From: Bacteroidota bacterium
GTDB taxonomy: Bacteria > Bacteroidota > Bacteroidia > 2-12-FULL-35-15
Direction of reading: 5' to 3'
Length of the DNA: 37,941 nt
Assembly (NCBI GenBank): GCA_023251835.1
Contig: JAHEXZ010000049.1
Coordinates: 1 to 37,941 of the forward strand
Part shown: piece after piece, positions 115 to 13,963 of the stretch
How positions within the stretch are numbered: the stretch's first letter is position 1
Layout: every line of letters starts with the position of its first letter
Translations under genes and position numbers: made by a program
Notes under the pieces: generated by a model
What the model was told of the DNA's origin: nothing
Seen by the model: only the letters and a program-made list of their open reading frames with translations
The model's database searches: none

Positions 115-366
115 TTGAAACAAAAAGAAACAAAAAATTCAAGAAAAGGTCATCGGCATTCGCACAAGCTGGCTCAGCCCCCGCTACCTTTTCTGGCCAC
201 CGCGCCTCTCTGAAGTTAGATCGGTGCGGCTGATGTCCACGAAAAGTGCGAACTGCAAGTTGCTCAGCATTGACGCGTTGATTGGGGCGAAAGAGCAAGC
301 TTGCAGTTGGTTGGAGTTCATCCTGAGCGAAGTCGAAGGATGGTGTCTTTTTCTTTGTTTCTTTCT
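115..366. repeat. Intergenic repeat element with inverted A/T-rich ends
   Basis: The block begins with a purine tract of the form GAAACAAAAAGAAACAAA and ends with its approximate complement (TCTTTTTCTTTGTTTCTTTC). Inside are a 15/16-bp inverted repeat (251-265 against 293-308, 27-nt loop) and a smaller palindrome at 319-342 whose arms are CATCCT and AGGATG around GAGCGAAGTCGA. It is visibly GC-richer than the flanks. The inner palindrome resembles short repeats I know from intergenic DNA of many Bacteroidetes. The extent is approximate, and membership of a genome-wide family cannot be tested from one window. Confidence 0.6.
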
Positions 367-9241: not shown

Positions 9242-9595
9242 TTAATATGGTTTCTGTCTTAACGTTTCTCCATTAAAAACAGTTAACTTTCTGACTGGGT
9301 CAAAACCCTCAATAGAAATAATTTTTTCAATTATTTTCCCTGGTTCATCAGACTCGTAGTTAGTAAGTCTTAAATAAATCACTCCACGGTTAGGTTTATT
9401 GCCGAATTTGAAAATAAGCTCACCATAATCCCTATCAAATGTCAAAATTATTCTCTGCTCTTTTTCTGCCAGTTCTACGACTTCACTGTCAGAAATACCT
9501 GAAAAATCAGAGCCGACAGCCTTTATATCAAAACCTTTACTCCTCAGGTATAAAGTGCTGTCTGCCGGGAAATTTTCATTTGCAAGAAATTTCAT
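9242..9595 (-). CDS. DUF5615 PIN-like protein (putative toxin)
   Basis: A 117-residue protein of the DUF5615 family, which has a PIN-like fold and is thought to act as the RNase-type partner of DUF433 proteins. Family motifs are MKFLANENFP at the N-terminus, ISDSEVVELAEKEQRIILTFDRDYGEL in the middle and GVIYLRL after it. The acidic residues E, D and D of those segments would form the metal site. The start is the ATG that overlaps the TGA of the DUF433 gene (ATGA), a standard translational-coupling arrangement; an upstream in-frame start would lie inside the partner. Toxicity is inferred from the family pairing. Confidence 0.85.
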   Translation of the reverse strand: MKFLANENFPADSTLYLRSKGFDIKAVGSDFSGISDSEVVELAEKEQRIILTFDRDYGELIFKFGNKPNRGVIYLRLTNYESDEPGKIIEKIISIEGFDPVRKLTVFNGETLRQKPY

Positions 9596-9834
9596 GATCC
9601 TGTTTTGCCCAGTGGGAAATAAATAAGCCCATTTTGCATACAATCATAAATATATGCAAAAACCGCTTGTAAAGAGTTATGAGTCAATCTTGGATAATTA
9701 GAAAGAATTTTTTCTTCTGTCCATCCTTGAGCCAATAAAGAAATTATGTGATCAACTGAAATCCGTGTTCCTTTAATTGCTGGTTTACCCAATAAAATCT
9801 CTTTGTCTGAAATAATATAATCCTGCCATTTCAT
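9592..9834 (-). CDS. DUF433 protein (putative antitoxin)
   Basis: An 80-residue protein of the DUF433 family. The family signature is clear: ILLGKPAIKGTRISVDHII, then LLAQGWTEEKILSNYPRL and a helical end. DUF433 proteins are small winged-helix-like proteins usually encoded just before a DUF5615 PIN-like protein, as here, and are taken to be antitoxins and probable autoregulators. The stop overlaps the start of the downstream gene by 4 nt. Upstream is an AT-rich spacer and a palindromic repeat; no convincing promoter was found. Confidence 0.85.
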   Translation of the reverse strand: MKWQDYIISDKEILLGKPAIKGTRISVDHIISLLAQGWTEEKILSNYPRLTHNSLQAVFAYIYDCMQNGLIYFPLGKTGS

Positions 9835-11080: not shown

Positions 11081-11641
11081 CTATTTTACTCTTTCAGTAT
11101 ATTCAGAAGTACGTGTATCAACACGTATTTTTTCGCCTTCATTAATAAATAAAGGCACCTTTACAATAGCACCGGTTTCCAAAGTAGCAGGTTTTAATGT
11201 ATTAGTTGCTGTGTTTCCTCTTTCGCCAGGTTCAGTATAGGTAACCAAAAGTTCAACAAAAACAGGACCTTCCGCCAATATTGGTTCATCACCCTCAAAG
11301 GATACTTTAACATCCATTCCTTCTTTTAAAAATTTCAAACTATCTCCAAGCAAAAACCCCGGAATATATATCTGCTCGTATGTTTCATTGTTCATGCACA
11401 CAATAAAATCACCTTCGGGGTAAATGTACTGCATCATTTTGTATTCAACACGTACCAATTCTACGTTCTCCCCCACACGGAAACGATTCTCAACCAATTT
11501 ACCGGTTTTTAAGTTACGCATACGCGCCTGGTAAAAAGCACGTAAATTACCCGGTGTACGATGTATATATTCTTCTACTCTGCAAAGTACTCCATCAAAA
11601 CGGATCACTGAACCTACTCCTATGTCGCCTGAAGTTGCCAT
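11081..11641 (-). CDS. efp: Translation elongation factor P
   Basis: A 186-residue EF-P, the tRNA-shaped factor that rescues ribosomes stalled on polyproline stretches by binding between P and E sites. All three beta-barrel domains are present: the KOW-like N-domain, the MNNETYEQI middle domain, and the C-terminal TYTEPGERGNTATNTLKPAT...GAIVKVPLFINEGEKIRVDTRTSEY signature (two separated pieces). The loop that carries the modified residue in other bacteria reads RTPGNLRAF (28-36), so Asn32 sits where E. coli has beta-lysylated Lys34 and where Pseudomonas has rhamnosylated Arg. No modification enzyme (EpmA, EarP, YmfI) is nearby. It has its own promoter and a strong terminator. Confidence 0.97.
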   Translation of the reverse strand: MATSGDIGVGSVIRFDGVLCRVEEYIHRTPGNLRAFYQARMRNLKTGKLVENRFRVGENVELVRVEYKMMQYIYPEGDFIVCMNNETYEQIYIPGFLLGDSLKFLKEGMDVKVSFEGDEPILAEGPVFVELLVTYTEPGERGNTATNTLKPATLETGAIVKVPLFINEGEKIRVDTRTSEYTERVK

Positions 11642-11746: not shown

Positions 11747-13879
11747 TTAATTCTTAACCACCTTTTGCTGTATTGTTTGTTTATCAGTAGTTATTTGAAG
11801 AAGATAGATACCTTTTGAAACACCGCTGATATCTATTGTTTTTGAATATTTTCCTAAAAATGTAACAGCTTTCTCCTCATATACTGTCTGGCCTGTTACG
11901 TTTACCAATTTTACAAGAATCTTCTCTGTTTTTCTTTGTTCAAATTGTACATTAATTGTACTACTTGCCGGGTTTGGAAAAATAGCCAGACGAGCATCCG
12001 AAAAATCTTTTACACTTGCAGGAAATTCAATAGTATTAAGTGCTGTATTTGTAATAACAGGGGGATTATAATCAAAATAAATATACGCAGTATTTGTTAG
12101 TTGAGTTCCAGGAGATAAACCCGCATTAAGAGCTATTGAATATTTTACATATCCGTGGCTGTTTGGTTCATCATGCGCTGAATCAGGCAGCATGATATTA
12201 CTAAAGTTAAACTTTAGAATATTGCCTGGTAAAAGTGTGGTTGTCTGTGAATGACTGGAAGATATAATTTCTAAAGTAGAAACATCTAAATCCGCATCCA
12301 ATGTATCTACTACAACTATATTTTGAGCTGCTGCAGTTCCCATATTCTGGAAATTAATTAAGTATTCTAATCGAGAAGTGGAATCTGGAATAAAGCCTGC
12401 TGTTCCTGCTCCATGAGGGTAAACTTCTTTTGAATTCGGGTCATAGGAATTACCAACAACAAAACAAGCTGTATAGATATTGTTGGTGGTGTCTGACTCT
12501 CCTTGTGCCGATGAAATAATTACAGTAAAACAAACCGTATCACCAATAGTAGCAGATGTGTTTGTTGTAACTGTAAAAGGATAGTTAAAATATCCAAAAT
12601 TATTAAGAGAATATACATCGGCTATATTCCAGACCAATGTATCGCCCGTTGAAGCTGCTATAACAGTATCAGGCCATACACCTGAATTATAAGGTCCATT
12701 GTATTGTACAAGAGAATCAAGAATTACAGTGATTGTTCCTGACAACGAATCCTGACCGCAGGACAGAGCATAATTACCAATAAAAGGAAAAACCGGAATT
12801 GTAAGCCCAGGGAAAAAGCCCTGCCATATAGAAATACCAGTAGCAGCCAAATCAATGCCATTACATGCTACAGCAAAATTTTCAGTTGTCAGAGAGGTTG
12901 TTATTGCCGTACTATGAGGCATACTGCCCGGACACGTTATTGAATATCCTGCCGAAGGAAATATTTCTATTGTATAGCTACCAATAGGCACATCAAAGTA
13001 ATAAAAGCCATAAGGATCCGTCCATGCCCATGCAACAAAATTTCCATTCTGAGTTAGTTTAATTTGTGCATTAGCAATATAACTTTCGGTTGAATCATAC
13101 ATACAATTACCATTTTCATCAGTATACGCTCTGCCTGATAATGAACCGCAAGTATCAATATAAACTAAAACACTATCCAAATAGAAACACGATGTATCCA
13201 GAAAATAATTAATATAATAATTACCTGCATCATTTAAACCAACACCATTTACAATAGGATCTTTTTGGTTAGAAGTAAAACCGTTAGGGCCTGCCCAGTT
13301 ATATGTACCGGAACCCAAATGGTCTGTCGCCATTAATTGTAATGAACCACCAACGCATAAGGGGGCATTATAATATGCATGCGTAACACAAACCTCATCA
13401 CAGGAAATAGTACCTGTTCCTCCTGTTACAGAAAAAGTAATATCGGTGGGTTGACCAGAATAATTGGTAATCATCATAATGTAATAATCACCTGCTTGAG
13501 CACTGCCAATAGTTGCAGTTTCACTAGAAGAAGAAGAATAACTACAATCTATAATTTGTGTAGTATTCAGCACATTACAAGCACCTGATGGTGAAGTAAA
13601 TGATCCCCAACATATAAAATCTATATCAACATTGGCTGAATTAGTCATATCAATAGTAAGACTGCCAGCAGTTGCAAATTTAAAATAGAACCAAGCAGGA
13701 TTTGGTTGTGTACCTAAACAACCATAATCCGGCCCCGACTGTGCAACTGTGTTAGTTGAGGCCGGATATATAATTGACGAAGAAGTACAAAAGGGTGTAG
13801 CAGTCAAACACGTTGAAGACTGGCTGAAAATATTATTTATCTGATAAATAAATAAAAACAAGAGTATAGTTCTTTTCAT
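11747..13879 (-). CDS. Large secreted T9SS cargo protein with DUF7619-like and sorting domains
   Basis: A 710-residue exported protein. From N to C: a signal peptide (1-20, ending NNIFSQ); a Cys-rich beta domain with PNPAWFYFKFATAG and DIDFICWGSF (about 20-160); an Ig/PKD-like domain (about 165-240, NWAGPNGFTSNQKDP); an SdrD-B/CNA-B-like domain (about 245-315, GRAYTDENGNCMYDS); a conserved SYDPNSKEVYPHG module (DUF7619-like, about 480-620); and a type IX secretion C-terminal domain (IFPNPASSTINVQF ... GIYLLQITTDKQ). It should be exported by Sec, passed through the outer membrane by T9SS and anchored to or released from the surface. The function is probably adhesive or structural; no catalytic motif was seen. 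The start fits a predicted promoter just upstream. Confidence 0.85.
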   Translation of the reverse strand: MKRTILLFLFIYQINNIFSQSSTCLTATPFCTSSSIIYPASTNTVAQSGPDYGCLGTQPNPAWFYFKFATAGSLTIDMTNSANVDIDFICWGSFTSPSGACNVLNTTQIIDCSYSSSSSETATIGSAQAGDYYIMMITNYSGQPTDITFSVTGGTGTISCDEVCVTHAYYNAPLCVGGSLQLMATDHLGSGTYNWAGPNGFTSNQKDPIVNGVGLNDAGNYYINYFLDTSCFYLDSVLVYIDTCGSLSGRAYTDENGNCMYDSTESYIANAQIKLTQNGNFVAWAWTDPYGFYYFDVPIGSYTIEIFPSAGYSITCPGSMPHSTAITTSLTTENFAVACNGIDLAATGISIWQGFFPGLTIPVFPFIGNYALSCGQDSLSGTITVILDSLVQYNGPYNSGVWPDTVIAASTGDTLVWNIADVYSLNNFGYFNYPFTVTTNTSATIGDTVCFTVIISSAQGESDTTNNIYTACFVVGNSYDPNSKEVYPHGAGTAGFIPDSTSRLEYLINFQNMGTAAAQNIVVVDTLDADLDVSTLEIISSSHSQTTTLLPGNILKFNFSNIMLPDSAHDEPNSHGYVKYSIALNAGLSPGTQLTNTAYIYFDYNPPVITNTALNTIEFPASVKDFSDARLAIFPNPASSTINVQFEQRKTEKILVKLVNVTGQTVYEEKAVTFLGKYSKTIDISGVSKGIYLLQITTDKQTIQQKVVKN

Positions 13880-13896
13880 GGCATAAGGATTTATAC

Positions 13897-13927
13897 CAAA
13901 TATAACTATTATAAACCGATAAAGCAA
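13897..13927 (-). promoter_or_regulatory. Predicted promoter of the T9SS cargo gene
   Basis: On the minus strand TTG (13925-13927), a 20-nt spacer and TATATTTG (13897-13904) match the consensus exactly. It lies inside the 24-codon open extension upstream of the signal peptide, so it also rules out the longer start at 13951. Confidence 0.62.
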
Positions 13928-13963
13928 CCGGAAATAATATTCTATATACACTTTCTTCAGCCC

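Follow-up and report, generated by a model that had tools for sequence, protein, structure and literature searches.

The window, by which we mean the whole stretch of 37,941 nucleotides of Bacteroidota DNA analysed here, encodes an elongation factor P (EF-P) that has an asparagine, Asn32, where E. coli EF-P has its modified lysine (Lys34); this asparagine is part of a fixed block, coupled with its neighbours Leu33 and Arg34. Our favoured reading, to which we give a probability of roughly 0.6, is that the protein is functional and works unmodified, by virtue of the way its loop is built. The Asn-tipped EF-P is itself a known, little-studied version of the factor and not a new one. The Asn tip, which the initial annotation of this DNA had singled out, is no news. 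In the accessible text of two earlier papers it had already been counted: at 2.2% among organisms lacking yjeA/yjeK (Bailly and de Crecy-Lagard 2010; PMC2821294), and in 2.23% of 1166 EF-Ps, with Pro accompanying it in 100% (Volkwein et al. 2019; PMC6544042).

An EF-P of the asparagine type

The domains PF08207, PF01132 and PF09285 follow one another in the window protein in the order, and over the length of about 186 residues, that define an EF-P (Table 1). Against the NCBIfam family TIGR00038 (efp), where the cut-off is 185.8 bits, the protein scores 218.4, and its AlphaFold2 model has a mean pLDDT of 90.1; the top Foldseek matches are EF-Ps, with a best TM-score of 0.91 (C. glutamicum EF-P, 6s8z) among the 50 matches listed. 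In its own genome we found one EF-P, the window copy, in an assembly that is 96.56% complete and whose missing part leaves room for another. A second, Lys-tipped EF-P that might do the work instead, a possibility raised in the initial annotation, was looked for in this assembly and not found. The best-supported description of the gene, as judged from its sequence, is that of an ordinary EF-P of the asparagine type, in single copy and standard for its organism. Directly upstream of efp, at 11747-13951 on the minus strand, lies a gene whose 734-aa product has a DUF7619 domain and carries a sorting tail for type IX secretion. Elsewhere in the window (9242-9834, minus strand), DUF433 and DUF5615 genes overlap, a pair that we take to resemble a small toxin-antitoxin module.

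Table 1. Positions of the efp features in the window, with related features placed by residue or locus
Feature	Position	Strand	Basis or remark
efp, translation elongation factor P, 186 aa	11081..11641	-	complete ORF, 11641->11081
EF-P domains: EFP_N, residues 5-60; OB domain, 69-121; C-terminal domain, 129-184			Pfam, all over cut-off
beta3-beta4 loop, residues 29-35, TPGNLRA	11537..11557	-	limits from AlphaFold2 model
Asn32 codon, loop tip, equivalent of E. coli Lys34	11546..11548	-	ungapped HMMER alignments
Leu33 and Arg34 codons, companions of the Asn tip	11540..11545	-	comparison of 225 distinct EF-Ps
KTARAAA loops of family f3			loci L165, L168, L170, L171, L172, L179

The position of Asn32 was established in two ways. 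In the AlphaFold2 model, strands 18-28 and 36-43 enclose the loop and Asn32 is its middle residue; in HMMER alignments with solved EF-Ps the loop is free of gaps and Asn32 lies opposite the Lys of PGK. The printed alignments hold five distinct solved EF-Ps (three alignments in one run, five in another), each with Lys at the tip. A match to the DNA pattern for the Asn loop falls at 11534-11554. The equivalence of Asn32 with E. coli Lys34 that the initial annotation had proposed, along with its coordinates and numbering, is borne out by these alignments and by the modelled loop. Faulty sequencing or alignment can practically be dismissed as the source of the Asn: the alignments are ungapped, and an Asn-tipped EF-P is encoded by all 80 of the relatives that we fetched (572 loci were confirmed, of which these are the best 80).

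With Asn at the Lys34 position and Pro30 two residues before it, the window protein has both marks of the asparagine type. Lysine-type EF-Ps carry Lys where it has Asn32, and the same is true of the 5-aminopentanolylated EF-P of the Bacillus type. Arginine-type EF-Ps combine an Arg tip with the lack of Pro at -2, a residue almost absent from this type in the accessible text of Volkwein et al. (PMC6544042), whereas the window protein has Asn32 and Pro30. Asn32 sits at the modification site itself, which puts it beyond the reach of the chemistries described for Lys and Arg, as the initial annotation had held.

The tip is coupled to its neighbours

The coupling emerged from a comparison of 225 distinct EF-Ps, each at least 150 residues long; the set is weighted towards the window protein's relatives, and the fragment L180 and identical proteins were left out. 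The tip is Asn in 145 of these proteins, Lys in 69, Arg in 9 and Gln in 2. The residue next to the Asn tip is Leu in 139 proteins, Trp in 4 and Lys in 2, and never Gly; Gly directly follows the Lys tip in 69 of 69. Two places after the Asn tip, 144 of the 145 proteins have Arg and one has His (L156); one Lys-tipped protein (L160) also has Arg at this place. Pro at -2 accompanies every Asn tip (145/145) and every Lys tip (69/69), and none of the Arg (0/9) or Gln (0/2) tips. Meanwhile, the codons vary synonymously among the 145 Asn-tipped proteins: Asn is AAT in 63 and AAC in 82, and six Leu codons and six Arg codons are in use at the block's Leu and Arg positions. Residues 27-36 (HRTPGNLRAF) are invariant across 44 aligned sequences, an invariance which argues that the gene is under strong selection.

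This fixed block suggests that the asparagine version of the loop works without the usual modification. In E. coli, the K34N variant of EF-P is inactive, as are variants with Lys34 changed to A, M or Q (accessible text of PMC6544042). Inactivity of K34N alone is what one would predict were activity to depend on the block as a whole rather than on a lone Asn. The same result might be taken to mean that the window loop has decayed, leaving a weak or inactive EF-P for which others, such as ABCF proteins, compensate, but we consider this quite improbable: ten consecutive loop residues that are invariant in 44 relatives, while synonymous codons vary freely, point to selection and not decay, and no other EF-P was found in the genome although its ValS, which carries IPPPNVTG, needs the PPP motif. 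The 34 ORFs of the window contain 8 Pro-Pro motifs, and with ValS they show that the genome has clients for an EF-P.

We also compared AlphaFold models of N-tipped and K-tipped forms. They have the same secondary structure, and a stiffer N loop is unsupported by structure prediction. The pLDDT of the block (residues 31-40) is 89 in the N model versus 83 in the K model, a difference that is uninformative because the K model is lower across the whole N-terminal domain.

Asparagine tips across the Bacteroidota

Our sample of the phylum comprised 395 genomes (Bacteroidota in the GTDB sense) with 56 family codes; EF-P was detected in 386 of them. Asn tips occur in 24 of the 56 codes, EF-Ps having been read from at least one genome per code. 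The pattern PGN(L/F)RAF, which is blind to the NWR, NKR, NLH and NLRAM forms, has matches in 156 of the 395 genomes; the reversed control pattern matched 6 genomes. Eight of the 156 (G012, G194, G198, G249, G273, G008, G119 and G223) were rejected as chance matches or as not EF-P, since the match lies outside the EF-P gene or the EF-P reads Lys. Some 148 genomes remain as PGN(L/F)RAF carriers, not every one of them read individually. The Asn tip is a clade-wide state and no oddity of the window. A different loop is found in family f3, which belongs to the window's class: in 6 of 6 genomes read it is KTARAAA, with an Arg tip and no Pro at -2 (Table 1). EarP was found in none of the 3 f3 genomes searched, a search that had no positive control.

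Candidate modifying enzymes

At the TIGR00462 cut-off, EpmA was found in none of 42 genomes, the window's own included, and 2 of 14 named control genomes were over the cut-off; the three own-genome matches listed in this search fall in ORFs that span 485 to 618 aa, a size that aminoacyl-tRNA synthetases have. EpmB had no match in the own genome, and 8 of the 14 control genomes matched. A beta-lysylated EF-P goes with both EpmA and EpmB in the genome, and neither was detected in this one. EarP was found in 0 of the 42 genomes, and no control genome matched either.

These searches bear on the idea that an unknown enzyme places some undescribed group, such as a sugar or an acyl chain, on Asn32 or Arg34. 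Modification is frequent among the described EF-Ps whose tip is Lys or Arg, and the target of such an enzyme would look much as Asn32 and Arg34 do, being almost fixed (Asn32 in all 145, a set chosen for its tip, and Arg34 in 144 of them). We nevertheless regard a modification of this kind as unlikely: no candidate enzyme surfaced among the families searched, and what efp adjoins is not a recognisable modifier but an lpxD homologue, downstream on the same strand in the window and beside efp in 16 of the 80 fetched loci (the best 80 of 572, 67 of the 80 full-length). Furthermore, the natural His at position 34 of L156 indicates that the Arg is dispensable. The proposal in the initial annotation that Arg34 might take over from the tip can thus be kept in part: a residue so nearly fixed probably matters, but its presence is no proof of a modification target.

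A more specific proposal comes from Volkwein et al., who mention a protein resembling deoxyhypusine synthase (DHS) and suggest it as a modifier of EF-Ps with Lys or Asn tips (accessible text of PMC6544042). The window's own genome does have such a gene (PF01916; G000:C82:59773-60684, L218; E 5.9e-43). In the sample, 302 of 395 genomes have a PF01916 gene. A co-occurrence count based on a single EF-P for each genome, with the Lys paralogues of L127 and L128 set aside, found the gene in 63 of the 64 genomes with an N tip and in 37 of the 65 with another tip (p 3.4e-9 in a naive Fisher test that ignores the tree). On the other hand, tree-aware contrasts, one of them supported, lend no support to a link between the DHS-like gene and the N tip; DHS-like genes are found beside Lys and Arg tips too, and in G279, an N-tip genome that is 99% complete, none was detected. 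The own DHS-like protein also falls below every NCBIfam cut-off in a four-family annotation. DHS chemistry acts on the amine of a lysine, and requires it; an Asn tip does not have one. The DHS homologues known as SpeY produce homospermidine in other bacteria and are described as playing no part in the formation of deoxyhypusine (accessible text of PMC9992855). All told, we think it very unlikely that the own DHS-like protein modifies EF-P.

The initial annotation had framed the matter as a choice between an EF-P that is unmodified and one modified in an undescribed way, and this was the correct choice to pose; of the two, we favour the unmodified state, given that N-L-R is a fixed block, that K34N alone is inactive in E. 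coli and that unmodified EF-Ps have precedents. We infer that the window EF-P is active, and that it would act as follows. Like other EF-Ps, it would bind between the P and E sites, where the beta3-beta4 loop would steady the CCA end of peptidyl-tRNA(Pro), allowing proline-proline bonds to form. P-G-N-(Leu/Trp)-Arg would be a preformed loop that dispenses with modification: Leu33 may stiffen or pack the turn, Asn32 would make the contact at the tip, and tRNA or rRNA may be held by a further backbone contact from Arg34. An actinobacterial subfamily of EF-P reportedly works unmodified (said to be from Pinheiro, 2020), and the work on EfpL, another such precedent, is reportedly due to Sieber.

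Evolution of the loop and its paralogues

The history of the loop was followed on a tree of 97 EF-Ps, thinned at 88% identity and built without residues 24-41; it predates a later set of loci with NWR loops. The Asn label needs 6 changes on this loop-free tree, at least 4 of them forced by well-supported branches; on a loop-inclusive tree of 134 rows it needs 3. Across 4 supported independent contrasts, residue 35 (E. coli numbering) switches with the tip in 4 of 4, and residue 36 does so in nearly all pairings; with four contrasts p cannot fall below 0.125, so these patterns are short of significance.

The loop NPGNWRAF, in which Asn is followed by Trp-Arg, sits on Lys-type flanks in four proteins (L202, family f54; L228, f21; L232, f28; L236, f40), and is a second form of the Asn loop. 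An Asn-Leu-Arg protein, L199 (f36), likewise has Lys-type-like flanks; in it and in the Trp form these read like HV..PG....VRTKLK.

Several genomes carry more than one EF-P. A second EF-P with a Lys tip, HRTPGKGGAF, was seen in Sphingobacteriaceae and in family f2 (L051, L063, L068, L127, L128 and L206-L209), sitting either beside the Asn-tipped EF-P or apart from it. Among the 80 fetched loci, a Lys-tipped EF-P also lies within the fetched flank in 3, all from Pedobacter; Pedobacter sp. Hv1 has its two genes side by side (L051, 3001-3561 and 3709-4269). Two EF-Ps are present in 7 of the 10 f2 genomes of the sample, and the second copy is Lys-tipped in 6 of 6 read. On the loop-free tree, the Lys-tipped Sphingobacteriaceae paralogues nest within the Asn clade (fork 98/98), and because of this position the extra EF-P most likely arose by a change from NLR to KGG after duplication. 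Other combinations were also observed. Gln-tipped paralogues with the loop HAGSGQMQGF (L262 and L263) are second copies in G228 and G337, where the main copy is Asn-tipped; G294 has a Lys-tipped EF-P and an Asn-tipped second copy (L261, HHTPGNLRAM); and f34 genomes have an Asn-tipped EF-P together with an Arg-tipped one (VQTGRGGAYY; second copies L210 and L260).

From these patterns we tentatively propose, at slightly less than even odds, that the asparagine type is a separate functional design, a loop free of modification in which the tip and its neighbours have to change together: it would have been reached more than once, in the Leu form and in the Trp form on a Lys-type background, and would have reverted to Lys-Gly-Gly in Sphingobacteriaceae paralogues that possibly serve different stall sequences.

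Modification of Lys or Arg is usually presented as the key to EF-P activity. If our main reading is true, there would be in nature a large group of EF-Ps, each in single copy and unable to carry those modifications, from which it would follow that the loop itself suffices. The coupled block offers a small and direct test, N-L-R as a unit versus the inactive N alone, and the cultured Sphingobacteriaceae in which Asn- and Lys-tipped copies are adjacent make a comparison within one cell possible.

Comparison with known EF-Ps

A literature search that covered titles, the openings of abstracts and accessible text returned nothing on the mechanism of an Asn tip or on an N-(L/W)-R block, and no activity or mass results for any Asn-tipped EF-P. 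The closest known group is the Asn type of Volkwein et al., with which the window protein shares the Asn tip and the Pro at -2 (here 145 of 145) and from which it does not differ in kind; the L/W-R neighbours and the spread in the Bacteroidota, both given here, are absent from the accessible text of that paper. With the lysine-type EF-P of E. coli it shares the fold, the order of domains, the length of the loop, the PG before the tip and the AF after it. The two differ in the tip itself, Lys-Gly-Gln in E. coli versus Asn-Leu-Arg in the window, and in EpmA and EpmB, which were not found in the window's genome. The fold is also shared with the arginine-type EF-Ps that EarP rhamnosylates, but the window protein has Pro at -2 and no Arg tip.

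EfpL/YeiP was considered as an identity for the window protein and ruled out on its scores of 94.3 and 103.8 bits, against cut-offs of 264 and 216; EfpL has a long loop and an Arg tip, and the window loop has seven residues. In the accessible text of the EfpL study, the Arg at the tip (R33) is unmodified by MS, asparagine tips are listed as well, and stiffening of the loop in actinobacteria is cited as another strategy that is free of modification (PMC11611912). EfpL/YeiP and actinobacterial EF-Ps have Arg or Lys at the tip, whereas the window protein has Asn. What they would share is the principle: for them too it has been proposed that the way the loop is built makes modification unnecessary, and it is the C. 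glutamicum EF-P that lies closest to the window protein by TM-score among the matches listed.
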